Origin: Blakeslea trispora | Taxonomy: Eukaryota; Mucoromycota; Mucoromycetes; Mucorales; Choanephoraceae | Length of the DNA stretch: 64,000 nt | Assembly: GCA_025331445.1 (NCBI GenBank) | Contig: JAIWNE010000017.1 | Coordinates: 310,001-374,000, forward strand | Direction: 5' to 3' | In this document: positions 2,022 to 52,267 of the stretch, one piece after another | Layout of the letters: every line of letters begins with the position of its first letter | How positions within the stretch are numbered: the first letter of the stretch is position 1 | The notes under the pieces: generated by a model | The model's database searches: none | Seen by the model: only the letters and a program-made list of their open reading frames with translations | Told to the model about the DNA's origin: nothing | Position numbers and translations under genes: made by a program

Positions 2022-2987
2022 ATGTCAAACTCACCTGTTTCTTCTTCTTCCCCTGCAGTCGTAGATGTCGACATGGACGTTGTTGTCCAGGAACCTCTTC
2101 CTGTTGTTGCTGCTCCTGTTGTTGCTGCTCCTGTTGTCTCTGCTTCTGTTGCTCCTGCCCCTGTGGTTGGTGTCTCTGCCCCTGTGGTTGGTGTCTCTGC
2201 CCCTGTGGTTGGTGTCTCTGCCCCTGTGGTTGGTGTCTCTGCCCCTGTTGTGGTTGATGCCTCTCTCCTCCGTCACGCCGTCAACGTTCTGAAGGCTGAG
2301 CTTGTAGTCCTGGGCTGCAAGTACCATGGCGCCAACAAGGAGGCTGACCTTGCTGATTTGCGTGGGCAAATCGACAGCAAAAAGGCTGACTTGGAGGTGC
2401 TTGTTCGCACTTTGGAGAGTGTGGATGGTCCTGCTGTGTCTCCTGCTGTGGGTGCTGCTCCTTGGTCTGGTGCTTCTTCTGTTGCTCCTGTTGCCGCTCC
2501 TTTGTCTTCTCGCGTTGTCTGCCCTTCTGCTCTCCCTCTCTTCCAGTGGGAAGGTTGTGTGCATGACAACAAGTCACGCATCTTTCCGGATGTACATGCG
2601 TGCATCATGTTCTTTGAGGACGTGATGCGCGCCAACGAGTTGGACTTGAACCAGCATTTCTTGCGGTTGGTCCCACAACTCTTGTCCTACACCGCTCGTC
2701 AGTGGTACGGACAATTCTTGTTCCAGTTTGGTTCTGCTTCGCCTTCTTGGGGTGAATTCAAGGCTGCTTTCTCTTCTCGCTTTGGGCGTACGGTCCCACA
2801 AGAACAAGCTGACTGTTCTTTGGCCTTGTCCAAGGTGGAGATGTTGCCTGGTGAAGGCTTTGAAGCCTTCGTAGACCGCTTCCGGGACTTGTGTCGTCGT
2901 TCTGGCCCTCTCTGCTTGCCCTCTCCTGTGTTGATGGACAAGTTCCAATGTGCTATACCTAGCTATCTGCTAAAAAGGTTCTCTTAG
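2022..2987 (+). pseudogene. gag: gag, N-terminal part (outer chromovirus)
   Basis: Structural protein of the retrotransposon particle. ATG at 2022 lies 60 nt after the LTR. The N-terminus is low-complexity and rich in Val, Ala and Pro, with four tandem 21-bp units (about 2159-2242) giving a repeated PVVGVSA heptapeptide. A retrotransposon gag core follows, with a WYGQF segment and a later LPGEGFEAFVDRFRDL segment. The frame stops at 2985-2987, but homologous sequence (LARAALPEHA and onward) continues in the -1 frame from about 2970, through an A-run. The related inner element carries gag and protease in one frame here, so a mutation is more likely than programmed frameshifting, although the A-run makes slippage conceivable. 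Confidence 0.8.
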
Positions 2988-5900: not shown

Positions 5901-6790
5901 GTCTTGCTACAGACGATGTGGATAATCACGAAGAATCTTCTTCTTCTACGTCGAAATCACCTTTATCGAGTAAACGTCAATCTGCCGAGTATATGACACC
6001 ACCTGAAATGGAACGTCGAGATCTTATCGAGCGTACTCATCTTCTTGGTCACTTTGGTGTGAATGCGATTGAGAAAACCTTTCATGCTGACGGTATACAT
6101 TGGACTAACTTGAGAAAAGATATTGAACGTGTTGTAAAAGACTGTACAGCTTGTCATCAACATACCATTCACAAAGTAGGCTATCATCCACCTAGACATA
6201 TCTTACCTGAAGGAGTCTTAGATCACATTTGTGTGGATCTAGGCACTTTCAATGTTACATCGTCTAGTGGAAACAACTTCTTATTACTCGTAGTTGATAT
6301 GTTCTCACGCTTTACCATTCTAAGAGCTATTCCTGATAAGAATGCATATACTATTGCAAGAGAGTTGCTCAGTATTTGGTGTTTATTTGGGTTTAGTAGA
6401 ATTATTAGTCATGACAACGGATCTGAATTTGTGAACGAAGTCTTGAAGCAATTGGCTGAGATGACTGGAGTTGATCAAAGGGTTTCATTACCTTACAATC
6501 CTGTCGGTAATTCTATATGTGAAAGATATATGGGCGTGTGCAAACAAGCCATTATCAAAGCAATTACAGCTGATGCAAAGGATCCTGAAAGTTGGGATTT
6601 ATATGTTGACATGGCTCAATACGCTGTCAACGCTCAGTTTAGACACTTGCACAGTACACGTGCATTCACGGCTATGTTTTTCAGACAGCCGAATCAATTA
6701 ACTGATTATACCGAAGTGATGCCCACTTTGACATTTGAAAAATCTGAGCACAAACGTATCAATGAGCAATTGAAACACGTTAAAGAAGTA
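2970..6790 (+). CDS. pol: gag C-terminus, protease, RT, RNase H, integrase (outer chromovirus)
   Basis: One long open frame with no ATG of its own near the start. From position 3032 the order is: two zinc-knuckle-like clusters, the second with Tyr where the second Cys is expected (CFRY instead of CxxC); aspartic protease with DSGA (3882-3893, about residue 284); reverse transcriptase with YVDD (4859-4870, about residue 610); RNase H with ATDAS (about residue 760); integrase zinc region with His-His-Cys-Cys (about residues 1003-1045); integrase core with Asp (about 1067), Asp in HDNG (about 1125) and Glu in CER (about 1163). The real coding ends at 6790, where the inner LTR starts; bases 6791-6835 read inner LTR sequence. 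The rest, including the chromodomain, is at 13091-13678. Confidence 0.92.
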
Positions 6791-7201
6791 TGTTATAATC
6801 CAATAAATCACAATGAAATAAATCCAAGGAATTAACCAGACTAAAGATAATGTTTTATTTACTTCAAAATTGATGTGCTATTTATACTTTTCATGAAGAT
6901 GATATTTCAACTGAGATTGTAAAACTTTTCTAGAGGCTTGTAGATGATTATGATAATAACAACGAATCGGATGAGAGATGAATGATGACAGTCTTGTAAA
7001 GAAGAATTACTAAAATAGAATGATTGGCCATCTGTACCTTAAACCCAGTAACTGGTAAATTATTGGCAAGATGTCAGTCCTGACCTTGAATGAAGGTTTA
7101 TCCGAATTGAATGTCAAATGAAACAAGCTGAAGTCGAATTAGAGAATGGTTGTGGATTCATAAGTGGCTAAATACTTGATCCGTACTGTATGAATACAAC
7201 A
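6791..7201 (-). repeat. 3' LTR of inner chromovirus
   Basis: 411 bp, with TG and CA ends when read on the minus strand, matching 12675-13085 throughout. A TATAAATA box (minus strand) near 6881-6888 is followed 17-26 nt downstream by GTAAATAAAA, a likely transcript start. AAGTA lies directly outside at 6786-6790. Confidence 0.95.
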
Positions 7202-17214: not shown

Positions 17215-18890
17215 TCATGATTTTCCGTGATCCATCTTAATTTTGAATACTTCCTTTAGAACAGCTGAAAGATGATCAGAAACGCTTCTATCACTTTTGT
17301 TAATATATTGGACAATGTATGCGCAACAGGCATATGGGTCCAATATATACTGTATATCGATGTTTGCCCTATGCATTTTGAGTATTTTCGCATTGAATTG
17401 ATTGATACAGACGTGCTTGACCTCACGTTTCAAAAAAAAATTAGACGTCCTAAGGGTCGATCTCACTGCCATCAGATATTCATTCTTGTTTAGGTTAAAA
17501 TACTTATGAATTGCTCAAAAGTAAGATCAGAAGAACTTAATGTATCATAGTTATCATCTAAGTATTTTCGTACTTGCTTTCCCCACCGTTCATAGTTAGA
17601 ATTTCTCTATCAGGTAAAGGGTCTAAGACAACTGTTTTATCCATTGGAAAGATTGGGATGGCAAATCGAAAGTTTTGGTTTTTTTGCTCTTCTTAAAGCA
17701 GGTTTTTGTATGATGATGAGATTGTCTTGAAATAATTAGTTCTTTCAGAGTGTCATCGAAATCATCATGGTGAGCATTGGAAGTCATAACTGTATCAACA
17801 AATTCACAGACTTTCTTTCTGTTGGATTCTCGAATAACAGGATCTGTTACTTCAAGATCAATGCTTGGTGCCTCATCCAACCAAATCATCATATGTGCAT
17901 GGGGAGATCCTCTATGCTGAAATTCTATGCGGAAATAATGGTCTTTGATTGCAAAGTTACCAAATGGACCATATGGAGGCTTCCAAGTATTTTTCAATAT
18001 TCTAATCCTTTTGTCGAAATATCTGGCACATGTTACAGGATCAGATTGTATTAACCTTGCTTTTTCCTCATGCGACAGATTATTTGATTCTTCCTCAGAA
18101 ATATCAACACCATCTATCACTCTTTTAAGTATCACTAATAGCTCTGGCCATCTGGATTCGGCAGCTGAAAGTGTAACAAACAGAGTGGGAGTGCCTAATT
18201 GACAAACCATTGCCATCAAATCTGACTGCTCTTTCTTCCAGAATGCAGGACTAGATCTAACTCTAGAAAGAACTTGGAATGCTTCGTCTCTCTTGAGTGC
18301 TTCGTTAAGTCCATTGTTCTGAAGAATGTTATCAGCTGTTAATGGGTTTTCAAGTCTTGATTTGGACATTCGCATCATTGTGTTCACCTGGCTAGCCAAT
18401 GTAAGCAATTGCTTTTTTCTATCCATAAAGAGCAGGAAGTCGGTTCTTTTTGCAAATCGTCGATCATGATGACGAGCTAATGACTTTACTATAGCATTGA
18501 AGCTTAGGGTAACCCTTTGTGTTTAGGATTCAGGATTTCACCGCCAAAGAGGGTCGGAAAGGCTAATGACTCGACATCTATATTAAGCAAAAGTGACATT
18601 GGACTAGAGCCTTCAGCTGGTGCAATACGAACACCTTCATCTTCCTGAATAATCCTTGCACTTAATTCACCTGCAAACATTGTTTCTTGACCACCAGGAT
18701 TCGCATCCCACATAAAGTCGTTATTAAGATCATTGGCCAAAGAATCACTTTCAATACTCAATTCAGAGAATGCTTGAACAAATTGGTCGAATATTTGACA
18801 TTGAACAATTAGAGTGCTTAGCTGATTATATTCTTCTTCTGAATCTCTGATTTTTACATTGTGTTTTAAATATGCTGCAGATTGACTCAA
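17215..18890 (-). pseudogene. Helentron Rep (HUH endonuclease) region
   Basis: Rolling-circle initiator. The N-terminal Helitron segment (18504-18890) ends with APAEGSSPMSLLLNIDVESLAFPTLF-type sequence. The next segment (17623-18426) carries the HUH motif in HRGSPHAHMMIWLD. The two-tyrosine motif AYIVQYINK lies at 17215-17472, with the Tyr residues four apart. These are the active-site parts of a Y2 Rep nuclease. Frame changes separate the three segments (near 18430-18500 and 17475-17620). The conserved order and minus orientation leave little doubt about identity. Confidence 0.85.
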
Positions 18891-26253: not shown

Positions 26254-26530
26254 CACTACGGGTAAAAGCTTGTCTGTTTTATATCTGAAAAACCCTGTTT
26301 GGGATATCTAACCGACTTTGTCGGTTAACGACAGAAAAAGACAAAACACAGACTAATCGGTTTAAGGGTTTATTAGGCCTTTAACCAACAATTTTCTCGC
26401 TGCTTAAAAATTGTCGGTTAAAGGGTGTTTTAGACTTTTAACTGACAGGAAATTTATGCCCGTTAAAGGGTGTTTTAGGCTTTTAACTGACAGATAATGC
26501 ATGTCGGTTAAAGGGCAATCCTTTGATCTT
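26254..26530. repeat. Left tip with subterminal GTCGGTTAAAGG repeats
   Basis: The CACTACGGG tip is followed by several copies of a TTAACCGAC / GTCGGTTAAAGG motif in both orientations (near 26308-26328, 26414-26425, 26468-26480 and 26505-26517), including TAACCGACTTTGTCGGTTA. CACTA elements carry arrays of short subterminal repeats bound by their own accessory protein. The right tip (40740-41012) mirrors this. Confidence 0.75.
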
Positions 26531-27752
26531 ATTTGCTTTCTTGATTAAAACACCCTTGATACCATTGGCTTAAAAGACCTCTTGTACTTCTTTCGGTCTT
26601 TATATCCCTTTACTCCCATAGGATCTCTCACGTTACATTATTACACAATTTTTTCAATTACACTCCTTTGCTATTTGACCCTAGTGTAAAGATGTATGCT
26701 CTATTTGGCAGTTGTTGCTTTTCTTTATTGGCTAGTATGCTTTCGTTACTACTCTTTTCGTACTCGGTTAAAATATATTACGGAAGGCTTTTTTTAAATT
26801 CTTTTATATAATTGGTTTATTCATAATCATTATTACTATATACGATCTATCTATGGGATTTGTGTCCATATATTATTGGCTAATCCAATGCTCAATATAC
26901 TGGGTCCCCCGTACTCATTTGTACCTCTTTACCTAGCCTTGGGTATTGCAGTATTCATATTTTGTGCTTACCTTTAGAACCGTTGTTTTCAGAGCTATAC
27001 GTTTATTATTCAGTCAGGGAACCAGAATAAGACAGAAGCAGTTTGTATCTCTTCTTGAGGCCATTAGACGATCTTTGTAAAAGAAAAAGAATATAGTGAA
27101 ATAAAAAGAAAGGGTTATTAGAATCATTGCAAACGCAAATGTTAGAAATTATTTACCTTTTCATTATGATAAACATCACCTTCGCAGTAAGATCCATCAG
27201 ATAGAACATCTACAAAATATATCAAATGCAAAATTAGATCGAGCTTATTCAGTTGCATCTTATTTTTTTATCTTTACTTACAATTTGAGAGTATTAAAGG
27301 ATTGGGCTTTCTTCACACACTTTAGGAAGGGCAAGGTAAATAGTTATGACTATCAAAAGAAAGCGTTAGCTTCGTTTCAATGAGAAGATTCTATCATTTA
27401 CCTTTTTTGCGAAAAGTAACAGGAACGAAAACTTGTACTTGCACGATAATACTATACAGTAATTCATATTAATAATTGTTTTCTTTTTATTTTTAGTAAT
27501 AGATACATACCATGAACCACTATAAATAGTTTAAAGAAAGAACGAAAGGAAAAAGAAACTAAAAAATTTTAATTGGTTTTTAACGATTTAAATGTTTTGT
27601 CCTAAGCCACTTGGTGTTTAAACATGTTTCATTCAAATTCCGATTGTGTCAAATCAATTCAAATCAAAGTATCTAATGCTGACAGTATAAAAGACTTTGT
27701 GCCTGATTTCATTTTGTTGATTGTCTTTATCATCATTTTATATAATTCAAAC

Positions 27753-28837
27753 ATGTTTCACACTACCACTTCCAACAACACCAACGCTAATGCCGTTGCT
27801 GTTCCCATTCCTGTACCTAACGCTGTCAGCATCAGCGGTACTGTCTCTACTCCTCGCCAGAACAACACGGCCATCAACAGAGAGTACAAGAGTTGAAGCG
27901 AGCCCTTGCTAACACCAATCAGCAGCTTCAAAGTGTCGAGGCCAAGAACAACCAGCTATCTCGCCAGCTGAGTGACTTGAATGAGAAATTTACTACCAAC
28001 TCACTGCCATAATACCAAGTTTGATTCCCTGGCACTAAAGACGATTTAAGATACTCCGTGTTAGTACTATCCATAATCTATTCTTTCGGCTTTACTCATC
28101 GTTTCTATTTAGTGTCTTAAATCGATATTAAAAGAGAACAGCTCGGCGAAGATGGCTGGAGACTAGATGAGACACTAATCAATGGTCCTTACAATGGACA
28201 AAAAGTGAAGACAATCATCAGCAATTTTGAAGTACATCACACGTACTTTATTATTCTTCGTGATAAAGTCTGGAGCTCTACAGACAGAGCAAACTTTGTC
28301 AAGTATGTCCTTGGCAAACGCTTCAACAGCCTTCGTGACGAAAAAAAGAAGAAGATTTGCCAGAAGAAGCTAGAGAAGAAATGCAAAGAAAGAATATTTA
28401 TGCGACTCGCAAATCACAAGTAAGATATTTTGATTACAAGTTCTCAAATTTGCAATCGCTAACAACAATATTTTGATAAATAGATCTTGAAGAGAAGAAG
28501 AAACACGTACAGCAATTTCAAGCATCGCTTCAAGTTACTATGGAACGGATGCCGAGTGCACTTCAGTACTCGTTCAGAAATGGTTTCAGACAAGAGGATG
28601 AGTTGGATGCTGAGGTGAAGAAGTAAGATAAGAAAGACTCCAAAATACAGAACAGAAAAGGTTAGTAGACCACAGCAAACTATTGTGAATATAATAACTA
28701 ATTTGCTTAAATATTGTGACGAGTTTTTTGATGAGTTGGATGCAATTCGCAACGCCAACACAAAAGCCAGAAACCGTCGATTTATACCACCAAGATTGGT
28801 TCAAGAATTCGGAAGGATCACACACCATGACTTCTGA
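27753..28837 (+). pseudogene. Coiled-coil accessory gene, left arm
   Basis: ATG at 27753 starts MFHTTTSNNTNAN, with an Ala/Val/Pro-rich start. A coiled coil follows in shifted frames (LKRALANTNQQLQS, then NQLSRQLSDLNEKF). Later exons read NFEVHHTYFIILRDKVWSSTDRANF, a Lys-rich basic helix, and a C-terminal part with DELDAIRNANTKARNRRF, stopping at about 28837. The mirror copy at 38410-39501 shares the same order, which shows that this is a real gene of the element. I do not recognise a family. By position it could be the TnpA-like binding partner of CACTA transposases. Frame changes near 27885 and 28010-28130 break it. Confidence 0.55.
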
Positions 28838-28959
28838 AAACTTGCTGCTTTGCCAACATGGGCTATTGATAATAATTCTGTTTAGCCTTTTCTTAAATCT
28901 TTGTAATAAATATTGAAAAAAAAATATCCTTTGTTTGTTACAGAATTTTATTTGGTAAA

Positions 28960-31900
28960 TCAACAACGACATGATTTTGGAAAGGTTGTATTAACATGTG
29001 AACTAGTGAATCATTTTTTGTACTGGCAAAATTGAATAAGAACTAACATTTTCGTATTACATCGAAAAGGACGCATATAAGGTCCAGTGTACTGAGATAA
29101 ATTTTCTTTACCGGTACGAGGATTCTTGAACCGGTGAACGAAAGCAAAGTAATGGTTCAAGTAGCATGTTTTGCCATTGGTATCAGTAAACTGTGCCTGA
29201 TGACAAAAAAGTAATCGACTGATCCAGCACGCAGATGCTCGGTAGTGTCTGTATATTGAACCTCCAAATCATCGTTTTCGAAATCATCCTGCGAAAGGCA
29301 TTGAAATCGATGCCGACATTGCTTCCTGTTAGTCTAGAACTGTAAGTGGATCCAAGCACATCGATCTTTTTGAATTTTTGACGTTGTTGATAACGACAAT
29401 CGGTTTACTGTATTGTCTTCCGTAATATTCAACTAAACATTGAAAGTGTTCTGGTTTCAAGTGCTTAGGAGCCCCTCGGGCCCAAGTGAGAGGCACTCTA
29501 CCGTCTCTGGTCATGGATTCAAAGCCCATAGGATTTCCACCTTTTGTGAGTACTTGATCATATCCCCTAATGAATAAGGAATACCAGGTCCTATGATACC
29601 TGATCTTGCAATAAATCCTCACTTGTTTGAATAATATTGTTGTTGTTGTTTTCTGTAGTTTGGTTCATTTCGTAGTTGTTTGATGTATATGAAAGAAAAG
29701 TATTTCTAATAAAAAACAAATGGAATACGATTGATGCTCTAAATGTCTTGATTTAGTTGGATACTACCAATTGATTATTAGCATGGTGACACAATTCTCT
29801 TTTGGCATTATCATTCGAAAAACTCTAAAACTTTAACTGATATAATTGAGATAGGGCTGAAAGCTATTCGTAGATTTCCAAATCTTACAGTTATTGGTGT
29901 ATAACATTATGCCAACACTATTACGCTACAGGCAAAAGACAATTGTAACAAACAAAACATAAACCAAAAATGGTAAGAACGTGTCACGCTCTGTTTAAAT
30001 TTGAAGCGGAAGTTTAGTTTTAGTCTAGTTTCTTTTGGCTTTTTTTGTTTTCTCTTTTTTATGTATTAGCTTCTCTTTAATGTTGCATCTTCAATAGGCA
30101 TGACAAACCATAAACTACGCGTAGTAAATCAACCATAAACTTGGTATGCATAGGCAGTAGAAAATAAACGTGATAATAATGTAAGCAAATATGTTAAGTT
30201 TTTTTTGTTTTTATTCTAAATTTTTTTAATGATATTGATAGGTATATGTAGGTAATATATAAAAAAAAAACAATGGAAAGTCATTAAGGAGTATCCAGCA
30301 TTTAGAAGGGAGGTTGACAGCTAAAATAATAAAAAAACAAGTAGATTTAAAGGGGTATCCAATACAAAAGTAAGTGATCTGATCTAATCCTACTTCTAAT
30401 TATCTCTCTATTTATATTTTCGAAAGTAGGATGTTTATAATATCTAGATTATTGTTGATGTATAAAATGATTCTTCGATGTCGATATCCAGAATCATGAT
30501 AGTTCAAGTACGCACTAAGGGTGGCGAGAATACTAATGGAAGCTTTCGATGTCAGACTCATTGGAACGTAAATAACATTATTATATTGAATAGAAGATTG
30601 ATTGGTGATTTAGTATAGGTTCTATATTATGTATTCATACGATTTTGTATGTTTTTTCACCATGCTTGTGATTTATTTTTACATTTTTAAGAAAGAGTTG
30701 TTTCTTTCGAAGTTAAACGCCCAGAAGCAAGAGACTGGACCCCATTTATGCATACAGTCGCGGAGATGCAGCATAAATGGAAATTGGGCGGGACAGATTC
30801 AGAGTCGTAGGCAAGTTCATATTTTTGGCAAAGTTTAAGAGATGAGTGTGAACTACATCAATGTCGGAAATTTTTATAACACCAGAATCAAGGATTCGGA
30901 AAGCATGGATCAACTCCATCATGTGCATGTAAACAGAGGCATCAAGAGCGGGAGGACAAAGGAGAGCATGGGCCATAGAGGTCATAAAGTCTTTGAATTC
31001 GACTGCTTTGACATATGGGAACCCAGTTTTTGTAATCTTTTTTTGACATAGGATTGCCAGAGCTTGGGGATTGAAATCCATTGATATTGCATGATCTTTT
31101 GAACCTTCAGATAAGCATCTTCCGGCATCATTTTATTAAAGCAGTTTTGCAGCACCCAAGTACAGAACGTGAATAGGCTCAATAGCCAACAGTCTTAGGA
31201 AAGTAAGGTAACTTGAAAAGCACCGAAAAACGAACACCACTTTCTTGCTCTAATTCTTGTCGGTGTTTTGCTGTCACAGCCTTCTTCCAAGCACGAGAGC
31301 TGCCTCTGTTTTCTCTCGGGTTCTTCTTCTCCAAGTGTCACAATTCCAGTTGCAATAGTTTCTTTGGTTGCCAGGTCCTGCAATGCTTGGAAACTGTGTA
31401 TGACACAAGTGACAACCGAAATTACTATTGAAGGACATGCTACTTGCTAGTTTTTGGTTGCTGGAAGATCCAACAGATTGTAGCTAGGCACGCCCTACAT
31501 TGTTTTTGACAACTGAACCATCTTTCATCCATTACCATTTCCACACCTTCTAACAAACGAGCAACTCATCCACCAATGGCTTCAAGTAATGATTGAATGC
31601 CGTAGGTAGGAGGTTCTTTAGGACCAGGAATGACTCCTACGAGTATCATGTTCTTTTTGAGGTCACGGCCGTTGGCTTTAGGTAAGTTTTGTATAGTGAG
31701 GTATATACACCCTACACTATAATGGGCATAAATGGACCAAACCAGTCAACGTTCAGAGTGAGGAGCAGTTATAGTCACCGAGGAAGGCGAAAGGAAGAGG
31801 ATCGTTTGGAAGTGCCTTAACTCAGCGAAACCAGTACCATCGTAAATGTAAGCATATAGCCAGGAACAGTCTCGCGCTTTCCATTCGTTAATCTGGTCAG

Positions 31901-32948
31901 CAAACCTTGGCGCAGAAAGAATTTTTGAGTGTGGAATGATTGAGCAGTACGGATATTCTTTTGAGGGACAAGTCTTGCAACTCTCTTGTGTAACGTAGTC
32001 ATATACTTTGCCTGTACAGTATCTTTCTGACTTCTTTGGCTTGAATACTGCATTTTGAAGTCTTGGTTGCAAACAATATCTCACCTCCAGGCTGGTTCTT
32101 CTTGTTCATAGAGATGTGGCAACTGGTACAGACATTGTAGAATTTTATACCATCATTACTCAGTTTGAAAAGTGGCTTCTTTTCAAGAACGTTGCCAATG
32201 TTCTTGGAAAGCGGAATGCATCGTTTTGGAATTTCCAACAAACTGTTAAGATCTTGCATGTATTTTTCGATCTGGTTGCGAGGAGTACTGTTGTTGAACA
32301 TGTCAGTAACCAGCTGAAAGAGGATCTTGGAAGAAGGGCTTTGAGGAAGTTTATCAGCTAAGTTGAGAAAATAAACGAGTTGGTATTAGACTACTTGTAC
32401 TAAAACAGCTATTATAGAACTACTTACATAGAAGATCAAATTCAGAAGGTGTAGCAGGCTCAGGCTCAGGCTCGGACTCAGCTGGAGATGCAGTTGTAGG
32501 CTCAGGTTCAGTTGCAGTTACTGGCTCAGGCTCAGTAGAAGCATTAACAGGCTCTTCTATTTCATCAATTTGCATTGGATCTACTGAAGATAATTTTATC
32601 AGTTCTTTCTCTTTATGCAGACATCACAGTTTAACAAATTTACCAGAGTTTGATGGTTGTTCAGCCAATTCAGTTGTTGGATTAAGGAAATGAGGAGTAC
32701 GTCTGTTGATTGAGTTCTCTATGGATTGAGAGGTAAAGAATTAGAATTAAATGTGAATTGACTGAATCAGAGATAGATCACTTACTGTTGATTTCAAGCC
32801 ATTCTTGATAGGGCATCTTATCATACTTGTTGTGAATTTTATGAGAACGATGGGTAGAAGGCTTGATGAACTTGGCCTCTTCAGGTCTGATTTTGCAGAT
32901 GTCACAAAAACAGTAGATCAAAGTGTTTCTAGTAGGCATAGCAGGCAT
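28960..32948 (-). pseudogene. Tnp2-type transposase, left arm
   Basis: ATG at 32948 (MPAMPTRNTLIYCFCDICK) starts a Cys-containing N-terminal exon ending near 32790 at a GTAAGT donor. Further exons carry an acidic Glu/Pro-repeat linker, STPRNQIEKYMQDLN, YNVCTSCH, a decayed core near 31750-32100, FPYVKAVEFKDF (31000-31040), and a C-terminal part including PVQESSYR-like sequence near 29100. It is clearly more broken than its mirror copy at 34531-38260. A diverged LTR (30312-30640) interrupts its C-terminal region. The family call rests on the right-arm copy. Confidence 0.7.
30312..30640 (+). repeat. Decayed LTR copy in the left arm
   Basis: Matches the solo LTR at 14852-15236 over most of its length in the same orientation, starting from the shared TTGACAGCTAAAA. 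It lacks a base or a few bases relative to that copy about every 10-20 nt. It has no counterpart in the right arm, so it arrived after the arms formed. The ends are too decayed to identify a target duplication. Confidence 0.75.
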
Positions 32949-32989
32949 TTCAAGGTAAATTAAATAGAATGTGAGATGGATAGTAGTTT

Positions 32990-34530
32990 TATTTTGTTTT
33001 TCTGTGAGTCTTTTATATCTTTTTCTTTTGTTTGAACTGCCACTACCCTGTTACTAATCAAAAGGATTGCACAGAATTTCATTTGTTCTTTGAATGTAGA
33101 CAAATCAAAAGTCTTTTTGCTTAGAAATCATTGATCGGAAGCAATGTTTTTGGTTAATGAATATTCTTCTTCAATGTTTGGTTCCTTTCTGTCAACAATT
33201 ATTAAAGCAAGACATATTCTAAAGCTTGACATCCGTCGATTCTGCTTGATTTTTTGTTCAGTTGAATATGCATATCAACACTTCCAAAGCTGTACCAGTA
33301 AGTTGTAAGTTGTTCTAATCATTCCTTCTGCTCTTATTTTAGACATAATGCCTTCCTAATTTGTCATGACTCAAAAATATTGTTGAAGCTCAGCTGCGCG
33401 CTGTTTAAATCAGAATGCTAAGCGATTTAAAAAATTAAATGCCTTTTTATTGGTCAAAAATATCGACATCTTTTTTTAAAAAAGAAATTTAAAGTGGTCA
33501 CAATAAAAAAAACTGGATTTTGTTAAAAATGGCGGTTCTTAAATTAGAGTCGATAAATGCTCAAATTGAATGCTTCTAAACGCATAGAAAATGATAGTAA
33601 AAACAACAATCTTCTTACATATTTACATTCTATATAGTTATAGACATTACTGCGTCAAATTTCATTCAGTTTTGATCATTTTTATAAAAATACATTTTAC
33701 TGCTTAAAATGACCCCTTTAACCGACATAGAACCGACAAAAAAATTTAGTCGGTTAAAGGGGTCGTTTCAAACAGTAAAATGTAAATTTATGAAAATTGG
33801 TCAAAACTGAATGAAATTCAAAACAGTGATGTATGTAGCTATCTAGAGTATATCCATGCAAAAAAAAAACGCTACTTTTACCATCATTTTCTATGCTCTT
33901 GCAAGCGTTCAATTTGAACATTCTTTGAATCGGTTTCAAGAGCCGCTTTTTTTTTTAACAAATTCCAGTTTTTTATTGTGACTACTTTAAATTTCATTTT
34001 TTTAAAAAAAAGTCTACGATTTTAACCAATAAAAAACTATTTGATTTTCGGACTTGTTCAGTATCACATTTTAAACGGAGCAAATCTGTGCTTTAACAAT
34101 TTTATCTATTCATGATAAATTAGGAAGGCATTCTGTCTAAAATAAGAGCAAAAGGGATAAAGAAAACAGCTTATAATCTACAGACATAGCTTTAGAAGTG
34201 CTGATATGCATATCAGATTGAATAAAAAGTTAAGCATTATCAACAAATACCAAATTTCGAAACATGTTTTGCTTTAATAATTACTGACTGAAAGGGACCA
34301 TACATTGAAGAAAAACATTTATGATTCAAAGACATTGTTTCCAATCAATGATTTCTAATCAGTAAAACTTTTGATTTGTCTATATTCAAGGAACAAATAA
34401 GATTCTGTAAAATCCTTTTGATTAGTGAAAAATAGACTGTAGCTCAGGCAGAAGAAAAAGATATAAAAGATGCAAAGAAAAATAAAGCAAAACAGCCATC
34501 TATTCGATATTTTATTTGATTTACCTTAAC
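32990..34530. other. Central region of the palindrome, noncoding
   Basis: AT-rich sequence between the two divergent transposase start codons. It is itself an imperfect inverted repeat (for example 33713-33726 pairs with 33749-33762, CCCCTTTAACCGAC against its complement), with a spacer of about 22 nt at 33727-33748 that holds one more AACCGAC copy. It must contain both transposase promoters. No clear TATA box was singled out. The subterminal-type motif at the centre suggests that former element ends were joined here. Confidence 0.65.
33727..33748. other. Centre of the 14.8-kb palindrome
   Basis: The unpaired spacer between the two arms. The first paired bases on each side are ACCGAC and GTCGGT, the same motif found at the outer tips. 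No CACTA tip remains here. Confidence 0.7.
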
Positions 34531-37500
34531 ATGCCTGCTACTCCTGTTAGAAACACTTTGATCTACTGTTTTTGTGACATCTGCAAATGCAGACCTGAAC
34601 AGGCCAAATTTATCAAGCCTTCTACCCATCGTTCTCACAAAAAATCCAACAAGTACGATAACATGCCCTATCAAGAATGGCTTGAAACCAACAGTAAGTG
34701 CTCTACATCTATTTCAGCCAATTCGCCCTCAATTCTTACTCATTACCTCATAATTTATAGAAAACAAAATCAACGGACGCACTCCATACTTTGCTAATCC
34801 AACAAGCGAATTAGTCGAACAACCATCTAGCTCTGGTAATTTTGCTAAACTGTAACGCCTACATAACGAGTAGGAACTAACAAACCAATCTTCAGTAGAT
34901 CCAATGCAAATTGATGAAGTTGAGGAACCTGTCGATGCCTTTGTTGAATCTGTAACTGTAACTGAGCCTGAGCCTGAGCTTCAGCCTGAGCCCGAGCACG
35001 AGCCTAAGTCTGCTGGACCTTCTGAATTTGATCTTTTGTGTAAGTAGTTCTAGAGCAGTCAATTTAGTACAAGTACTCTAACGCTAACTCATTTCTTCTC
35101 TCAACTTAGCTGACAAACTTCCTCAAAGCCCCTCCTCAAAGATCCTCTTTCAGCTAGTCACTGACATGTACAATAACAGCACTCCTCGCAATCAAATCGA
35201 AAAGTACATGCAAGATCTCAACCGCTTGTTAGAAATCCAAGTCGATGCTTTTCGTTTCCCAAAGACATTGACAACGTTCTTACAAAGAAGCCAACTTTTT
35301 AAACTGAGCAATGATGGTATACAGTACTACAACGTTTGTACTAGCTGCCATCATCTTCACGACCAAAAGAACGAACCTGGAGAGAATGACATCGTTTGTA
35401 ACCGAGATCTACAGAAAGCAGCATTCAAGCCAGCAAAGTCAGAAAGATACTGTAAAGGCAAAGTCTATGATTATGATTGCACTAAAAAGGTACCAAAGCT
35501 TGTGCCTCAAAAAGAGTATCCCTACTGTTCCGTTATTTCAACACTCAAAAAGTTCTTTCTGCGTCAAGGCTTTGCTGATCAGACTAACGAATGGAGAAAA
35601 CGTGAGACTGTTCCCGGCTATATGTTTGACATCTACGATGGTACCGGTTTCTCCGAATTTAAGGCACTCCCAAACGATCCTCTTCCTTTTGCTTTCCTCG
35701 GTGACTACAACCTGTTGCTCACTGTAAATGTCGACTGGTTTGGTCCCTTCAATGCCCAATATAGTGTAGGATGCATCTACCTCACTATACAGAACCTGCC
35801 CAAAGCCAATGGTCGTGACCTAAAGCAAAACATGTTATCGTAGGAGTCATTCCTGGGCCTCAAGAGCCTCCAACTACCACGTTCAATTATTATTTGAAGC
35901 ATTGGTGGATGAGTTGCTCGTGTTGTTAGAAGGTGTGGAGATGACAATGGTGATGAAAGATGGTTCAGTTGTCAATAATAAAGTCAGGGCATGCTTGGCT
36001 ACAATCTGCTCAAATCTTCCAGCAACAAAAAAGTTAGCAAGCAGCATGTCATTCAACAGCAATTTCGATTGTCACTTATGCCACACACAGTTCCCTCGTT
36101 TTGCAGGTCCGGGCATCAAAGAAACTACTGCAGCTGGAACTGCGACAATGGAGAAGAAGAACGGTAGAATAAACAGAGCAAGCTCTTGTGCTTGGAAGGA
36201 GGCCGAGACTGCAAAAAAAAAGACAAGAATTGGAACAAGGAAGTGGTGTTCGTTGTTCGGTGCTGTTCGAGTTGCCGTATTTTTCTTACGACTTGCTGGC
36301 CATCGAGCCTATGCACGTTTTGTATCTGGTGCAGCCAAGACCGCTTTGGTCCAAGATGATGCCAGAAGATGCCTATTTAAAGGTTCAAAAGGTTATGCGA
36401 TGCCATATGAGGTTTAATCCTTAGGCTCCTGGCAATCCAATGTCAAAGAAAATAACTAAAAATGGATTCCCATATGTGAAAGCAGTCGAATTCAAAGACT
36501 TTGTGACCTCTATGACCCATGCTCTCCTTTGTCCTCCCGCTCTTGATGCCTCTGTTCACATGCACATGATGGAGTTGATCCATGCACTTCGAATCCTTGA
36601 TTCTGGTGCCATCAAAAATTCTGATATGATGTAGTTCATACTCATCTGCTAAACTTTGAAAAAATACGAACAAGCCTACGGCTCTGAATCGTCCGCCTAA
36701 CTTCCATTTGATGCTGCATCTCCGCGATTGCATACGCAAATGGGGTCCAGTCTCTTGCTTTTGGGCTTTCAACTTTGAAAGGAATAATCTCTTCCTGAAA
36801 AATATCAAAACAAATCCCAAGCATGGTTTTGAGAAAACGTACATGCGTAAAATGCAAGCAATCACCTTCTCGAATGATGCTGATATTACCTCTCAAATGA
36901 ACTCTCTTAGTCGTTTTGTCTTCTTTTGTTATTATTATTAATCTATATATATTTATTAATATCATTTAAAAAATATTTAGAATAAAAACAAAAAAAACTT
37001 AACATTTTTGCTTACGTTATCATCACGCTAATTTTCTAATGCTTATGCACACTAAGTTCATAGTTGATTTACTAAGCGTAGTTTGTTGTTTGGCATGCCT
37101 ATTAAAGATGCAACATGAAAGAGAAACTTATCCATAAAAAAGAGAAAATAAAAACGAAAAGAAATCGGATTAAAACAAAATTTCCGCTCCTTTTCTGAAA
37201 AAAAATTCTCGCTCCAGACTTAAACAGAGCATAACATGATCTGGCCATTTTTGTTTATTGTTTATTCGTTATCATCGCCTTTACTCACAATGTAACAGTG
37301 CTGGCATATGATATACATCAATAACTGTGAAATTTGCAAGTCTACGAATAGCTCTTTATTCTATCTTAACTTTATCAGTCAAAGTTCAAAATCTTAGAAA
37401 TCAAAGTGCCAAAAGAGAGTTTTGTCACCATGCTGATAATCAATTGAGAGTATACAACTAAATCAAGACATTTAAAGCATCAATCATATTTATTTGGTTT

Positions 37501-38260
37501 TTATTAGAAATACTCTTCTTTCATATACATCAAACAACCACGAAATGACCAAACTACAGAAAACAATAACAATGTAATTCAAACAAGTGAGGATTTGTTG
37601 CAAGATCAGGGTATCATAGGACCTGGTATTCCTTATTCATTAGGGGATATAATCAAATATTCACAAAAAGATGAAAATTCTATGGGCTTTGAATCTATGA
37701 CTAAGGACGGTAGAGTGCCTCTCGCTTGGGCCCGAGGGGCTCCTAAGCACTTGGAACCAGCACACTTTCAATGTTTAGTTGAATATTACGGAAGACAATA
37801 TATACACTCATTGTCGTTATCAACAACGTCAAAAAGTTTAAAAAGATCGATGTACTTAATCCACTTACAGTTCTAGACTAACAGGAAGCAATGTCGGCAT
37901 CGATTTCAATGCCCTTTCGCCATGATGATTTGAAAACGATGACTTAGAAGGAGTCAATATCACCGACACTACCGAGCATCTGCGTGCTGGATCAGTCGAA
38001 TACTTTTTTTTGTCATCAGGCACAATTTACCGATATCAATGGCAAAATATGCTATATGAACCATTACTTTGCTTTCGTTCACTGGTTCAAGAATCCTCGT
38101 ACGGTAAAGAAACTTATCTCAGTACACTGGACCTTATATGCGTCCTCTTCAGTGTGAATACGAAAACATTAGTCTTATTCAATTTTGCCAGTCCAAAAAA
38201 TGTATTCACTAGTTCACATACTAAACATATCTTTTCCAAACATCATCGTCATTGTTGATT
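34531..38260 (+). pseudogene. Tnp2-type transposase, right arm (better preserved)
   Basis: ATG at 34531 starts MPATPVRNTLIYCFCDICK. Exon 1 runs to about 34694, ending at GTAAGT; exon 2 starts near 34761; an acidic linker of Pro/Glu repeats lies at 34905-35040, and the next exon starts near 35110. Core features of CACTA Tnp2 transposases follow: CTSCHHLH, then YMFDIYDGTGFSEF (DIYDG), FLGDYNLLLTVNVDWFGPF (two Asp), YLTIQNLPKANGRD, VGVIPGPQEP, VDELLVLLEGVEM, and a CHLCHT Cys pair. Further on come FPYVKAVEFKDF and HLMLHLRDCIRKWGPV...NFERNN. A last segment (37560-38260) includes VHWFKNPRT-like sequence. Frame changes near 35838, 35900 and after 36420 make this copy inactive as read. Confidence 0.78.
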
Positions 38261-38409
38261 TACCAAATAAAATTTGTAACGAACAAAGGATAATTTTTTT
38301 TTCAAAATATTATTGCACATGAATATAATAGTTAAAAAGTAAGAAGGAAAACAAAAGAAACCTAAACAAAGCTGCCGTCAACAGCCCAAGTTGGCAAAGC
38401 AGCAAGTGT

Positions 38410-39501
38410 CTCAGAAGTAATGGCGCGTGACTCCTTCCGAGTTCTTGAACCAGTCTTTGTAGGTATACATGACGGTTCTGGCTTTAGGTTGGCATTGCGA
38501 ATTGCATCCAACTCATCAAAAAACTCGTTGCACTATTCAAACAAATTGGTTAATACATTTACAATAGTTTGCTATAATCTACTAACCTTTTCTGTTCTGT
38601 ATTTTGGAGCCTTTCTTGATCTTACTTCTTCACCATCAGCATCCAGCTCATCTTCTTGATCCGAGATTATTTCAGGAACGAGTACTGAAGGCACTCACAT
38701 CCGTTCTATAGTAAGCTTCAAGACGATGCTTGAAGTTACTATATGTACTTCTTCTTCTTTTCAAGATCTATTTATCAAAATATTGTCTTAGCAGTTGCGA
38801 AACATAAGAACTTGTAATGAGAATATCTTACTTGCGATTTGCGGGTCGCATAGTTCTTCTTCCTAAGCTCTTCTTTTTTAGCTTCTTCTGGCAAATCTTT
38901 CTTCCTCTTTTCGTTAGGGATGTTGTTGAAACGTTGCCAAGTACATATTTTACGAAGTTTGCTCTGTCTGTAGAGCTCCAGACTCTGCCTTTGAGAACAA
39001 TGAAGTCGTGTGATGTACTTCAATGTTACTGATGATTGCTTTTACTTTCTGTCCATTGTAAGGGCCACCAATCAAAGTCTCGTCTAGTCTCCAGCTATCT
39101 TCACCAATCTGTTCTCTTTCAATATCAATTACAAGACACTAATAAGACGGTCAGTAAAACTAAAGGGTAATGATATGAGTAACACTAACACGAAGTATCT
39201 TTAAGTCATCTTTGGTGCCAGGGAATCGAAACTTTGTGTTAATGGTAGTCGAATTAGTAGCGAATTTCTCATTCATTTCATTCATTTGGCGAGACAGCTG
39301 GTTGTTCTTGGTCTCGACATTTCTAAGCTGCTCATTGGTGCTTTTAAGAGCTCGCTTTAACTCTTGCACCTCTCTACTGATAACTGTATTGCTCTGACGA
39401 GGAGTGGACACAATACCGCTGATACTGACAGCGTTAGCCATGGGAATAGGAACGGTGACGGCATTGTTGTTAGCATTGTCGGAAGAGGTAGTGTAGGACA
39501 T
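38410..39501 (-). pseudogene. Coiled-coil accessory gene, right arm
   Basis: Mirror copy of 27753-28837. ATG at 39501 starts MSYTTSSDNANNN. One frame covers the full coiled coil (REVQELKRALKSTNEQLRNVETKNNQLSRQMNEMNEKF) up to FPGTKDDLKILR, followed by a GTTAGT donor near 39190. Later exons are in other frames: GRVWSSTDRANFVKYVLG, a basic Lys/Arg stretch, and LVQELGR near 38440. Preservation of the first exon supports protein-level function at some time. Its product was probably a DNA- or transposase-binding helper; that is inference. Confidence 0.58.
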
Positions 39502-40729
39502 GTTTTGAGGCTAATTGAAATTTGATTTGAAAAAAGACAATCAACAAAATGAAATCAATTACCAAGTCTTTTATACTTGCAGCATTTGTCGTTTTATTCT
39601 AAAGTAATTTGACACATTCGAAATCTAAATGAAACTTGGCTTGAGCGCCGAATAGATCAGAATAGAATTTCAGGTAACTAAAAACCAATTAAAATTTTTT
39701 GAACTCTTTATCTCTTTCTTTTGCTTCTTTTTGATGTTTTAAAACTTTTCTGAGTGGTTCATGGTATGAGTCTCCTCACAAAAAATTGTTTATTAATATG
39801 AATCAATGTATAGTATGGCAAGACAAGTAACTCGTTTTAGTTGGTGCTATGTTTAGTAAGAAGGGGTAAGTGATCGATCATCTTTTTTTGAAGCAAAGTT
39901 AACAATGTTTTCCGTAGTAACTGATGGCTACTTACCTTATCCTCAAGATGTGTCTGAAGGGTTAAAGAGCTAAAGAGCTCCATTATTTGTTATACTGTAA
40001 GTAAGAAAAAAGTTTACAAATGTTTGTTTCTTTACTGATATTAACTGGGATTTATCTAATAGATGCTCTATCCTCTATCTCTATTTGGAAGGCTAGTGGC
40101 CATAGTCATTGATAGGTAATTAACTTATTTGTTGCTCATTTTTTTCGATTGTTTCTAATGACTATTTCTTTATTTTGATAGTTCTTTTCTGCTATCTATC
40201 TATTGTTTATTGGTCACAAGAAGAGATCTAGATGGATTTTACTCTATTCTGAATGAATGGCAAGAAAAATACTATCAAAACGATGTATCTAAAGGTAAGT
40301 GTAGTATGTAAAGACTACCACAGCTATGCCTGGGTGAAGAGGTAAAGAAGGGTATGGGGACCCAGTATATAGAGCATTAGATTAGCCAATGATGTACGGA
40401 TAAAGATCCAATGGATCGATCGTATAAACAATTTTTTTATTAAATAAACCAATAATATAAATGAATTCAAATGACGTTTTACGTATTATATTTTAACCGA
40501 GTGATAAATGAGTAAAAATAGAAGGCATATCAGCCAATAAAGAAAAGCAATGAGTACTAAATAAAGCATACATCTTTAAACCAAGGTCAAATAGCAAAGG
40601 AGTGTATTTGAAATGTTTGTGTAAAAATGTAACGTGGGAGAGCCTATGGGAGTTAGACAGTCTAAAGACCGAAGGAAACACAAAAGGTTTCTTTAGACCA
40701 ATAACATCAAGATTGCTTTATTCAAAGAA

Positions 40730-41012
40730 GCAAATGAGATTAGAGGATTGCCCTTTAACCGACGTGTATTATCTGTCACTTAAAAGCCCAAAAAACCCTT
40801 TAAATGACATAAATTATCTGTCGGTTAAAAGTCTGAAACACCCTTTTACCGACATTTTTTTTGCTGCTAAATCTTTGTCGGTTAAAGGCCTATTAAACCC
40901 CCAAACAGACTAGTCTATTTCATTTCTTAATGTGTCGTTAACCGACTTTGTCGGTTAAATATCCAGAATAGGGTTTTCCAGACATAAAACAGATATAATT
41001 TTTCCCGCAGTG
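40730..41012. repeat. Right tip with subterminal repeats
   Basis: Inverted counterpart of 26254-26530: CCTTTAACCGAC, CTGTCGGTTAAAAG, TTTTACCGAC, TGTCGGTTAAAGG and TTAACCGACTTTGTCGGTTAA-type copies, ending in CCCGCAGTG at 41004-41012. The next bases outward are CTA. Confidence 0.75.
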
Positions 41013-41392
41013 CTAACTTTACTATATACTTTGACATTAACCTTGCCGCATAGACAGGCTTTCTATTACTAAGACTTCCCTTGATTAACTGCTAATACGC
41101 TTAATCATTGTATCATTTATATATTTCATTTAATTTACTTATCTTTTCTTTTCACTTATATCTCTTCTTAAGGTTCGTTACCTAAACAACGTGGTGCTCA
41201 TTACATAACAATCGTTCTTCTCTTTGGTTCTATTGTATCATTGACTCTGACTCGTTACTGGCAAAATACTACTTACGTCCTGTAACAATATCCATTTGTT
41301 CTCTTTCTCAAGTTACTGCAAAAACTATCCTTTGTCCTGAAACAGCAGGCTTGATTGAAAATTAATCGCGTGAGTGGTCAAAATCAAAAGAT
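41013..41392. other. Short flank between the palindrome and tRNA, no gene
   Basis: Unique AT-rich sequence between the CACTA-type element and the tRNA gene. The last bases hold T4 runs on the minus strand just past the tRNA 3' end, which can serve as the Pol III terminator. Confidence 0.6.
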
Positions 41393-41463
41393 TGCGCGGT
41401 CGGGGAATCGAACCCCGGCCCTTCGCGTGGCAGGCGAAGATTATACCACTTAACCAACCGCGC
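41393..41463 (-). tRNA. tRNA-Gly (anticodon GCC)
   Basis: 71 nt on the minus strand. Acceptor stem GCGCGGT pairs with ACCGCGC, with discriminator A at 41393. Anticodon stem TTCGC/GCGAA holds loop CTGCCAC, with GCC at positions 34-36. The T arm is GGGGTTCGATTCCCC; the D arm contains the A box (GGTTAAGTGG). All four arms pair. Pol III T-runs follow on the minus strand near 41380-41390. A LINE is inserted directly upstream of its 5' end, but the tRNA itself is complete because the target duplication restores its first 15 nt. Confidence 0.95.
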
Positions 41464-48461: not shown

Positions 48462-49409
48462 ATGTCAAACAATTCGAATGAAAGCAAGTCTCGTACTAGT
48501 AGTTCGTTGGCAAATCAATCTGCTATGTCACCCTATCTCATGAAGTTCATGAGTGATCCTGTTGATTTTACTGGGGATATTCGTCGTACGAATCCCATCA
48601 ATTGGATTAAGAAACTTGACCGTATCAAGAGCTTTGGTAACCTTGATGATGAAAACATGATTATCATTGCTGCCGATCACCTGGTAGACCAAGCGAACTG
48701 TTGGTTCAATTTGACCCATCCTAACCCTGAAACTCTCACATGGAAGGACTTCAAGACTTCGTTTAAGGCTAAATACTGCAAGGGACAAACGGAGATCTGG
48801 TGGGATCAAATCAACAGTATCAAGCAAAGCTCTAGTGAAACTGTAGAAGATATAGAAATACGCATGCGAGAACTCTTCCAACTCGTCGGTGTCACTGATG
48901 AACGTATGATCAAGCGTACATTCTTGAAAGCTATTCGTCCTGATATTGCACTCGAGGTTGAACGAGGTGATGTCGATGAAAGCACTCCGTTAACCAATGT
49001 CATTGCCAAGGCGATCAAGGCGGAAAAGATACTCAAGAAGTACTAATTGACTGGTACAAGCAACGCTCCTGTCGCTATCTCAAGTGTTATTCCTGAAAAC
49101 AGTTTCAATCCATTTAATTCGCAGAAAGAACCAGAAAATGCTGCATCTGAGAAGAATTCTTCTGATGTGATGAGCGAATTGGTCAAAGAATTTCGCGAAA
49201 TGAAGATTAACCTTCTGAATGCTGCCAAAAATATTGGGAACAATGCTACTATGAATAACAACGCAAACAGAAGCTCCTACCCAAAGAGACCCATCGCATG
49301 CTATCATTGTAAAGAGGAAGGCCATAGAAAGGTGGACTGTCTTGTTCTCAAAGCCGAAAACCAGAATCACACTGCTCAACATTCGGGAAAAGGCTTAGCA
49401 CATCAGTAA
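48462..49409 (+). pseudogene. gag: gag with an in-frame stop (third Ty3)
   Basis: ATG at 48462 starts MSNNSNESKSRTSS. The capsid-type gag core has INWIKKLDRIK, NCWFNLTHPNPETLTWKDF and IRMRELFQLVGVTDERM. TAA at 49044-49046 is in frame; the same frame then continues through a linker to a classic zinc knuckle CYHCKEEGHRKVDC (about 49300-49341) and stops at 49407-49409. The first stop falls between capsid and nucleocapsid parts. A mutation is the simplest reading. Confidence 0.82.
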
Positions 49410-52267
49410 ACACTGGAGGTTCTGATGTGCAACCTAGACAAACAAATCCTCTTACTACTTCCATGAACAATGAAATTCACTATATTGAGGCCATACCACA
49501 AATGCCTGTATATAGTGCGGTGGCTAAAAAGAGAAAGACGGCGATATCAGACGCAGGTGGTCAAGGCTCAAGCAAAACCCCTTTTCCTTACGCTGCGCCT
49601 CCATATCCTTATCCACAACAAGGGGCTAGTATACATGAAGTACGTGCTGTAGCTGGCCAAGCAATCAATCCATCAGCTGCCGCAGTGAACGTACCAACGG
49701 TCATTCCGCAAACGCAAGCGAACACACAAATTCCGCCCATCAATGGTCAAACTGTTGTAAATCCTAGTCCTATGAGTCCCAAGGATAAAGGTAAACAAGT
49801 CAATAGACCTCAGGTGAATGCTGGTGCGAAAGTGCCCAAACCAAGAAAAAGAAAACCAGTACGCTATCTCCGATTGCAAAAGGATACAAGAAAGATCATG
49901 TCGGCACTTGCTGGTACCAATTCAAGCCAATCTATGTTAGACTGGGTCATGTACGATAAAGAGGCTCAAGACGACATTTTGGCTGCAGTGCGTACGATGA
50001 GGGCTACCAAAAAGAAAAAGGCTGAAATGAATCTAATGATTCAACCTGGTAATGCTGTTTCTCCTATGGAAATCAACAAGGCTGAGTTTCTAAGCACCTG
50101 GAGTACCTCTGGCCAAGCAGACCATAGATCCAATGATGAAGCTGCTTTGGATGATGATAAGAGATCAGCATATGCCTGGACATCCGATAGCGAGTCCAAC
50201 TATGAAGACTCTGATTCGGAAGAATCGGAAAGTACTAAAAGTGATGACAATGATTCTTGCATCGTTACAAGTGATGTTCAAGATTTCGACATCAACACAA
50301 TTCGTTCTAATGCTCCACTACGTGCTCCGGTGCTAATCAATGGGCGCTTGATCGAATGTATATTTGACACAGGGGCTGGTGTCAGCGTCATCAACGAAGC
50401 TCTTGCCAAGAAGTTGAACATTGAACCAACACACTTGGACGAGATGGTACTTGTGTCCTTTGACGATAAGAAGCATCGTTATCCTGCCAAAGTTAGTGCC
50501 AATGTACCATTGGATGTAGCTGGTCATAATCGTCCTGAACACTTTTGGATCCAACCTCAAATTACACAACACGATAACGACTATTGTATCATTTGTATGA
50601 CGTGGCTTAAGAAATATGACATAACCCTCAGAGTTTCTGATGACACCATATGCATACCCAACTCAACTGGTCAAGTAACTGAATTGCGTGGTGCTTCCAA
50701 TCGTATTGTCAATACTACGATTCAGAAGAAGAATGATGTCGCTGAAGTCTTTGCTGTTACCATATTTACGAACGATGTCTCTCAGGATGAGAATAAAATT
50801 GAAGTCAAAACATATGCACAAGACATCATGGACGAAGAGGCTGAATTGGCAAAACTGCTCTCCTTCGAAAACGTTGAAGATATTGAAATAAAGAATGTTC
50901 TCAATCAGTATAAAGATGTGTTTGTTGAAGTGAGCGGACCTGGATTAATAAGCTTCTTGAATCATGATATTCTACTGAAAGATGACAAACCTACTCCTAT
51001 ACGTTCAAAACCTTTCCGTTTGACTTGGAATGAAGAAGAGACTCTAAGAGGAGAGATCAAAAAGATGCTGGAATTGAATCTGATTAGACCATCTCCAGGA
51101 CTATGGTGTAGCCCATGTTTTTTCGTCAAGAAAAATAACGGAAAATTGCGGTTAGTCATTGACTATAGAAAGTTGAATTCTATGACGGTCAAGTCAGGTT
51201 ATGCCTTACCAATCATTGATCACTTGTTGGATCACTTGGGAGGAAATAAGTTTTTCTCAGTTATTGATTGTGCTAGCGGATTTTGGCAAGTTCCTCTAGA
51301 TGAACAAAGCAAGGAATACACTGGCTTTGTGACTTTACAAGGCTGTTATGAATTCAACGTAATGCCCTTTGGTCTGACCTCTGCAAGTAGCACTTTCCAG
51401 AGAATGATGCAAATATTGTTAGCACCATACATTGGTGATTTTGTCTTTGTCTTCATTGACGATGTGATCATATTCTCCAAAACCATGGAAGAGCATCGTG
51501 CTCACTGCCGCTTAGTGTTGGAAAAATGCAGAGAGCACAACTTGCGTTTGAACCTAACGAAAAGTCATTTCCTCAAGCCCAAAGTCAAGTATCTTGGACA
51601 TGAAATTTCAGCAGAGGGCATTTATCCTCACTCAAGAAACATGGACAAGATCGCAAACTTTGCTACTCCTAAAAGCTTGGATGAAGTACGGTTATTTCTC
51701 GGTACGACTGGCTACTATAGGCGTTTTGTAGATAGCTATGTAGCCATTGCACAACCGTTGAGCAAACTGACTCGTAAAGGTCAAGCCTTTGTATGGGAAA
51801 AGGAGCAACATGATAGCTTTGAATTCTTGAAGAGAGCGCTAATGACTCCACCCATACTGGCATTTCCAAGCAAGGAAGAAATCCAAATACTGACAACTGA
51901 TGCCTCAACAAAAGGATTCGCAGATATCTTATCTCAATCACCCAAAAGTGATAAAGAGGGCGAAACGGTGGTAGCCTATGTGTCTAAAACGGTATCTGCA
52001 GCTCAAAAGAATTATGCAGCAGTTCATCTGGAAGGTTATGCGATTGTCTGGGCGGTTACGCATTTCCGCCATTATCTCTTAGGAAGACACTTCATACTTC
52101 GCACTGATATTTCAGCCTTGTATCACATTCTAAGATCAGAGAATCCAAGTGTAAAACTGTCAAGATGGGCAGCGATATTGCTGGAATATGATTTTACAGT
52201 CGAGCATATTCCAGGCAAGATCAACCCAGCGGATAGTCTATCGCGACTCCTACCAGAGATCCTTTGA
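49410..52267 (+). CDS. pol: Protease, reverse transcriptase and RNase H (third Ty3)
   Basis: Open from shortly after the gag stop, in the -1 frame relative to gag, as many Ty3 elements use. A Pro/Gln-rich linker and a basic/acidic region precede the protease with DTGAGVSVI (about 50367). RT follows: KKNNGKLRLVIDYRKLN, IDCASGFWQVPL (catalytic Asp) and FIDDVIIFS at about 51453 (Phe in place of the usual Tyr before the Asp pair). RNase H has TTDAS, HLEGYAIVWAV and a Asp-containing TDISALY. It ends in HIPGKINPADSLSRL and a TGA at 52265-52267, after which the same frame continues into integrase. Confidence 0.88.

Follow-up and report, generated by a model that had tools for sequence, protein, structure and literature searches.

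How does a transposon come to be a palindrome, and how does such a palindrome reach more than one place in a genome? Both questions are raised by a locus of Blakeslea trispora that lies in a stretch of 64,000 nucleotides (C79:310001-374000, called the window below; the assembly has 37.2 Mb in 285 contigs, which are cited by C numbers). Positions 26254-41012 of the window form a single inverted structure of 14.8 kb with a CACTA-type tip at each outer end (CACTACGGG at 26254 and CCCGCAGTG ending at 41012). Self-alignment gave 43 inverted-repeat pairs that stay in register from the outside to the inside, and the 25 longest are 77-93% complementary. Between the left arm (A) and the right arm (B), BLASTN identity is 77.8% over 4166 columns and 80.2% over 3123 columns. 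A preliminary description of this DNA had called the element one giant diverged palindrome with CACTA-type tips, and this holds; the extents that it gave to the arms are corrected in Table 1, where the two overlap in a 16-bp weld. It had also warned that very high identity between the arms would point to an assembly duplication. With arms about 20% diverged, it is unlikely that the assembler duplicated one of them.

The two arms belong to two subfamilies of CACTA/EnSpm transposons, each of which also exists singly in this genome, with distinct left and right ends. Single-arm relatives of A are 89-98% identical to it, depending on the stretch, and those of B (on C17, C82, C247, and C240) are 91-96% identical. 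Single A copies have the left tip CACTACGGG and the right tip CACTACAGGG. At their right ends, a hairpin (GACCCCTTTAACCGAC, a loop, and GTCGGTTAAAGGGGTC) is followed after about 21 bp by CCCTGTAGTG, which was terminal in all nine right ends read. The outer stem is exactly GTCGGTTAAAGGGGTC in seven of these nine, and it differs by one or two bases on C42 and C196. The B copies on C17 and C247 have the same plan: GACCCCTTTAACCGAC, a loop, GTCGGTTAAAGGCCTC, and then CCCTGTAGTG. Perfect 3-bp target-site duplications (TSDs) flank four of the seven single copies with both flanks read, namely C42 (CGG), C71 (AGT), C38 (GTT), and C17 (GGA, if its two ends are taken as one interrupted element). An in-place inverted duplication of one element is ruled out, since the arms come from two subfamilies that also occur singly. 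There is also no sign of gene conversion between the window's arms: its B is no closer to its A than to other A copies.

Where were the two elements joined? The sequence of the window is that of A through the inner stem, the loop, and the outer stem of the hairpin (33711-33764), and it is then that of B, inward of B's inner stem. Over its 16 bases, the outer stem of A is identical to the complement of the inner stem of B, which places the exchange within 33749-33764. About 21 bp of A and about 58 bp of B, that is, both right tips, are lost at the centre, and thus the outer ends of the palindrome are two left ends. When the central 120 bases were folded, z was -9.0, and none of 200 shuffles was as good. 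Such a weld would fit a deletion, or a switch of template, at 16-bp repeats carried by two elements lying tail to tail. Alternative transposition that joined two right tips is ruled out, as the weld is located inside the tips. The suggestion in the preliminary description of a composite formed from two copies joined head to head is thus correct as to the composite, and it can be sharpened: the copies are of two subfamilies, they are joined tail to tail, and their right tips are gone.

The same A-B centre is present at 3 of 16 right-end loci, including the window (1001-bp central query, with 18 of 18 candidates scored). The other two centres, on C78 and C122, are both 99% identical to the window across the central 1001 bp. 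Right ends with A alone (10) or B alone (3) were also matched, at 93-96% identity, as were B-like fragments on C240. It is therefore not the case that all other copies are single-arm, which the preliminary description had named as grounds for abandoning its view. A one-off dead fusion, as suggested by a search limited to the best 19 of 320 candidates, is likewise ruled out by the centres on C78 and C122. On C78, the palindrome is 14.9 kb long, with tips read at 28180 and 43063 and with the centre and the mid-arm stretches in their places. The flanks of C78 and the window differ on both sides, so the palindrome has several copies with different flanks. On C122, the palindrome is cut off by the contig end at 33182, inside an arm; we infer that a tip at 19410 belongs to it, and this tip is probably the outer end of its B arm.

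How did the palindrome reach these loci? If it had moved recently as a unit by cut-and-paste, its copies should be about as similar along their whole length as at the centre, they should be flanked by TSDs, and the two flanks should once have formed a single site. Near-identity of the whole unit was not found: the centres are 99% identical to the window, and in the one mid-arm stretch compared, on the B side (window 37000-38400), C78 and C122 are 92% and 94% identical. In that stretch they are no closer to the window than the single B copies are (C17, 93%; C82, 94% over 875 of 1401 bp; best 40 of 42 candidates). At the outer 600 bp of A, identity to the window is 98% for C78, 96-98% for ten full-length single copies, and 90% for C32 (best 40 of 131 candidates). 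At the outer 600 bp of B, it is 95% for C78, 96% for C17, and 92% for C240 (best 40 of 151 candidates); C122:18807-19406 is 98% identical, and its orientation marks it as a distinct copy nearby. At both palindromes that could be read, a clean 3-bp TSD is missing (window, CCA/CTA; C78, CGG/CTC). Finally, the right flank of the window's palindrome is the inner part of a dispersed long terminal repeat (LTR)-like repeat that is cut by B. All 11 of the other copies fetched run on upstream with TCTCCCT, unlike the left flank of the window's palindrome. The other half of the repeat is not on the left side of this palindrome, where the flank is unrelated; therefore, its outer flanks are not one insertion site. 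The missing TSDs, the mismatched flanks, and the mid-arm stretch that is no closer than single copies all argue against the earlier proposal that the element moves as a full inverted duplication.

We lean towards an explanation in which the palindrome arose from one tail-to-tail fusion and was spread by ectopic recombination rather than by whole-unit cut-and-paste. Two CACTA/EnSpm elements of sister subfamilies, lying tail to tail, would have been joined once at the 16-bp sequence that is common to the subterminal hairpins of their right ends. Both right tips and the intervening DNA would have been deleted in the joining, which would leave a palindrome of 14.8 kb whose two outer ends are both left tips. 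The palindrome would then have arrived at at least three loci through ectopic recombination with single A and B copies, whether by gene conversion, crossover, or break-induced copying. We favour recombination as the means of spread because the centres on C78 and C122 are nearly identical to the window's while the tested mid-arm stretch is not, and because the flanks of the window's palindrome are not one insertion site. The element is a real and recurrent composite of known transposons that was probably born of recombination.

Several observations weigh against this explanation. First, mosaicism is found across the family. The single A copies on C42, C196, C99, C253, C256, C38, and C240 are mosaics of one another; for instance, C38 and C253 are 99.2% identical in the last 500 bp and 93.3% identical in the next kilobase. 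Identity between the window's B and C17 is 98% at a distance of 1.0-1.5 kb from the centre, drops to 86% at 3.0-3.5 kb, and is back at 97% beyond 5 kb. (The window's A is farthest from most single A copies at 2-3.5 kb from the right end, which is the transposase region.) A 99% centre with older arms is therefore not peculiar to palindromes spread by recombination. Second, perfect TSDs are also missing at three of the seven single copies (C32, C196, and C99), and two of the three bases are alike in the window's CCA/CTA. Third, the mid-arm comparison covers one stretch on the B side, and the window was the common reference for C78 and C122. Finally, transposition of the unit followed by conversion of its arms would look alike.

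This last scenario is the strongest alternative: a fused element with two left ends would have moved by cut-and-paste to three or more sites, and its arms would later have been converted from single copies. It accounts for the same centre at three loci, and the conversion that it needs is family-wide. The match between C78 and the window stops at the A tip and 6 bases or less from the B tip, and both flanks of C78 are unlike the window's. Also, both outer ends of the window's element still have their CACTA tip, along with three TGTCGGTTAA motifs each. (Counting exact matches only, this motif occurs three times in each outer 600 bp of the palindrome, once or twice at the centre, and nowhere in the intervening arms.) However, a clean TSD is seen at neither readable locus, the repeat to the right of the window's palindrome is not taken up again at its left tip, and the B arm on C122 appears to end in another tip. 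Furthermore, known families generally need both a left and a right end. As a moved unit with arms converted later would look similar, we retain transposition of the unit as an alternative, albeit an unlikely one.

Another alternative draws on the arrangement of CACTA tips across the genome. The pattern GTAGTG-N2-4-CACTAC, which describes two tips back to back, occurs at 82 places, versus 3 for the same pattern read backwards. The reciprocal pattern, CACTAC-N2-4-GTAGTG, occurs at 0 places, and its own backward control occurs at 14. With spacers of 0-20, there were 110 places versus 52 backwards, and the spacer was 2, 3, or 4 in 36 of the 50 places listed. We sampled 20 of the 82 junctions, and the subterminal sequence differed between the two ends in all 20. 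By eye, 15 of these combine a CACTACAC-type tip with an A-rich tip of the CACTACA- or CACTACG- type, four combine two of the first type, and one combines two of the second. A pairing preference between the two classes is weak, given that the count of 15 in 20 was made by eye and has no proper null. Among single A copies, another tip lies 2 bp away in 4 of 7 left flanks (those of C19 and C196 being the same flank) and in 3 of 9 right flanks; the left flank of C99 has a further tip neighbour at 4 bp, from the pattern match only. On C38, the last base of the neighbouring tip forms part of A's TSD (GTT), as an ordinary insertion of A at this spot would predict. Judging from sequence, back-to-back tips may reflect a tip-directed insertion preference, and other routes are possible. 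The 82 junctions suggest that these transposons frequently land at each other's ends. As a separate instance, a B copy within C122:18807-19430 ends 3 bp from another CACTA tip, the one at 19410.

With such a preference, A and B could have landed side by side independently at each locus, with the fused centre then copied among loci by conversion. Back-to-back tips are indeed common, and two separate insertions predict no common TSD. However, three tail-to-tail A-B pairs among 16 right-end loci is much to ask. Also, the left flank of the window's A is not the repeat that B cut, so A is not at B's tip; in particular, insertion of A at B's right tip is ruled out, as this would have left A with the B-cut repeat as its left flank. 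We consider independent pairs improbable. We give as little credence to an assembly artefact in which contigs that break off in A and B repeats were linked by way of the short hairpin that these repeats have in common: although the C122 contig does end inside an arm and the window is dense in transposons, a folded-back read predicts identical arms instead of about 20% divergence, and the other two centres are 99%, not 100%, identical to the window's, with larger differences in the mid-arm and at the outer ends, so one mis-join would have to recur.

The element resembles known CACTA/EnSpm (CMC/CMCT) transposons in its CAC..GTG tips, in its Transposase_21 (Tnp2), in its second gene, in its subterminal repeats, and perhaps in 3-bp TSDs, which are perfect at four of seven single copies and at neither of the two readable palindromes. 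In PMC12730594, TET-bearing Puccinia families are classed as EnSpm by 5'-CAC..GTG-3' termini and 3-bp TSDs. The window's element differs from CACTA/EnSpm in that it is two elements fused: it has a left end on either side, lacks a right end, and shows no clean TSD. In the macrotransposons or double elements of maize Ac/Ds, two transposon copies behave, or are passed on, as a single larger structure; here, in contrast, the inner ends are gone, the copies are of two subfamilies, and the joint falls within a subterminal hairpin. Long inverted arms around a short centre are found in inverted-repeat dimers and Foldback elements as well, but the arms in the window are near-complete coding elements that are about 20% diverged, rather than tandem-repeat arms or copies of one element. 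Among literature titles and abstract openings, we found no palindromic CACTA fusion and no tip-to-tip CACTA insertion.

Although long palindromes are usually unstable, one genome here has the same centre at three loci. Its origin can be given at the level of bases (a 16-bp match in the transposon's own subterminal hairpin), the parents are identifiable, and the same genome holds single-arm controls. This makes it testable how transposons yield palindromes and whether these spread by recombination or by transposition. A more far-reaching idea, which we think doubtful, is that such a fusion, with its two left ends and four gene copies, propagates itself as a palindrome: right ends would be welded by recombination at subterminal hairpins, tip-seeking insertion would bring partners, and the weld would multiply, rearranging the linked chromosomes.

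As to the genes, the preliminary description gave each arm a Tnp2 transposase running outward and a coiled-coil gene running inward, and this order is borne out. Outward pieces of a Tnp2-type transposase are present in both arms (35154-38274 on the plus strand and 32313-28984 on the minus strand, from TBLASTN with six homologues: P0001-P0004, P0063, and P0066), and both arms have an inward reading frame. The coiled-coil character is weak: the inward frame of B has weak Pfam matches only, each below the cut-off. Judged by sequence, neither arm's transposase gene looks intact: the hits are spread over several frames, and introns could explain part of this. PF02992 (Transposase_21) was found in none of the 10 window frames tested, and among the best 150 of 171 candidates in the genome, there were 148 matches, none of them inside the window. 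This domain is present in a frame of the single A copy on C42 (45.6 bits versus a cut-off of 28.6) and in 60 of 62 transposase homologues. The 67 homologues include one from Circinella minor and two from Blakeslea trispora. The arms have 278 exact 21-mers in common, so a read-through transcript of both arms could pair with itself, and silencing by double-stranded RNA is possible.

Table 1. Positions in the window of the palindrome's features and of the adjoining repeat
Feature	Position	Strand	Basis
Arm A: subfamily A; outer end is the left tip; lacks ~21 bp on the right	26254..33764	+	Single-arm relatives (89-98% by stretch)
Left tip of A, CACTACGGG	26254..26262	+	Identical tip at 8 of 8 other A loci with tip read (C78 included)
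Subterminal repeats of A (TGTCGGTTAA, three in outer 600 bp)	26305..26600	+	Exact motif matches
Inward reading frames of A (candidate TnpA-like gene, putative role)	27606..28423	+	Open reading frames
Tnp2-type transposase of A, apparently broken	28984..32313	-	TBLASTN, several frames
Private insertion in A, 372 bp versus ~70-80 bp in other A copies	30274..30645		Alignment gap, query 4020 to 4393
Central hairpin: stems of 16 bp at 33711-33726 and at 33749-33764; loop oriented as in A	33711..33764		Sequence and folding
Weld, GTCGGTTAAAGGGGTC: A outer stem = complement of B inner stem; A-to-B switch	33749..33764	+	A copies; B copies C17 and C247
Arm B: subfamily B, opposite orientation, right ~58 bp missing	~33749..41012	-	Relatives on C17, C82, C247, and C240
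Tnp2-type transposase of B, apparently broken	34486..38274	+	Open reading frames and TBLASTN
Inward reading frames of B, weakly coiled-coil-like	38775..39510	-	Open reading frames and weak Pfam matches
Left tip of B, CACTGCGGG on minus strand	41004..41012	-	Identical tip on C17, C78, and C122:19406
Right flank: inner part of LTR-like repeat cut by B	41013..41345	+	11 of 11 other copies differ upstream

Some minor features were also seen. Arm A has a surplus of about 290 bp at 30274-30645 relative to other A copies. The dispersed LTR-like repeat (52 matches; best 40 of 154 candidates) lies 48 bp from a tRNA gene (41393-41463), and of 18 loci scanned for tRNAs, two, the A copies on C42 and C71, likewise have one near the right tip. 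The window as a whole is dense in transposons, with two retroelement polyproteins and a Helitron-like helicase domain at 2963-6832, 17623-18519, and 49328-52264.

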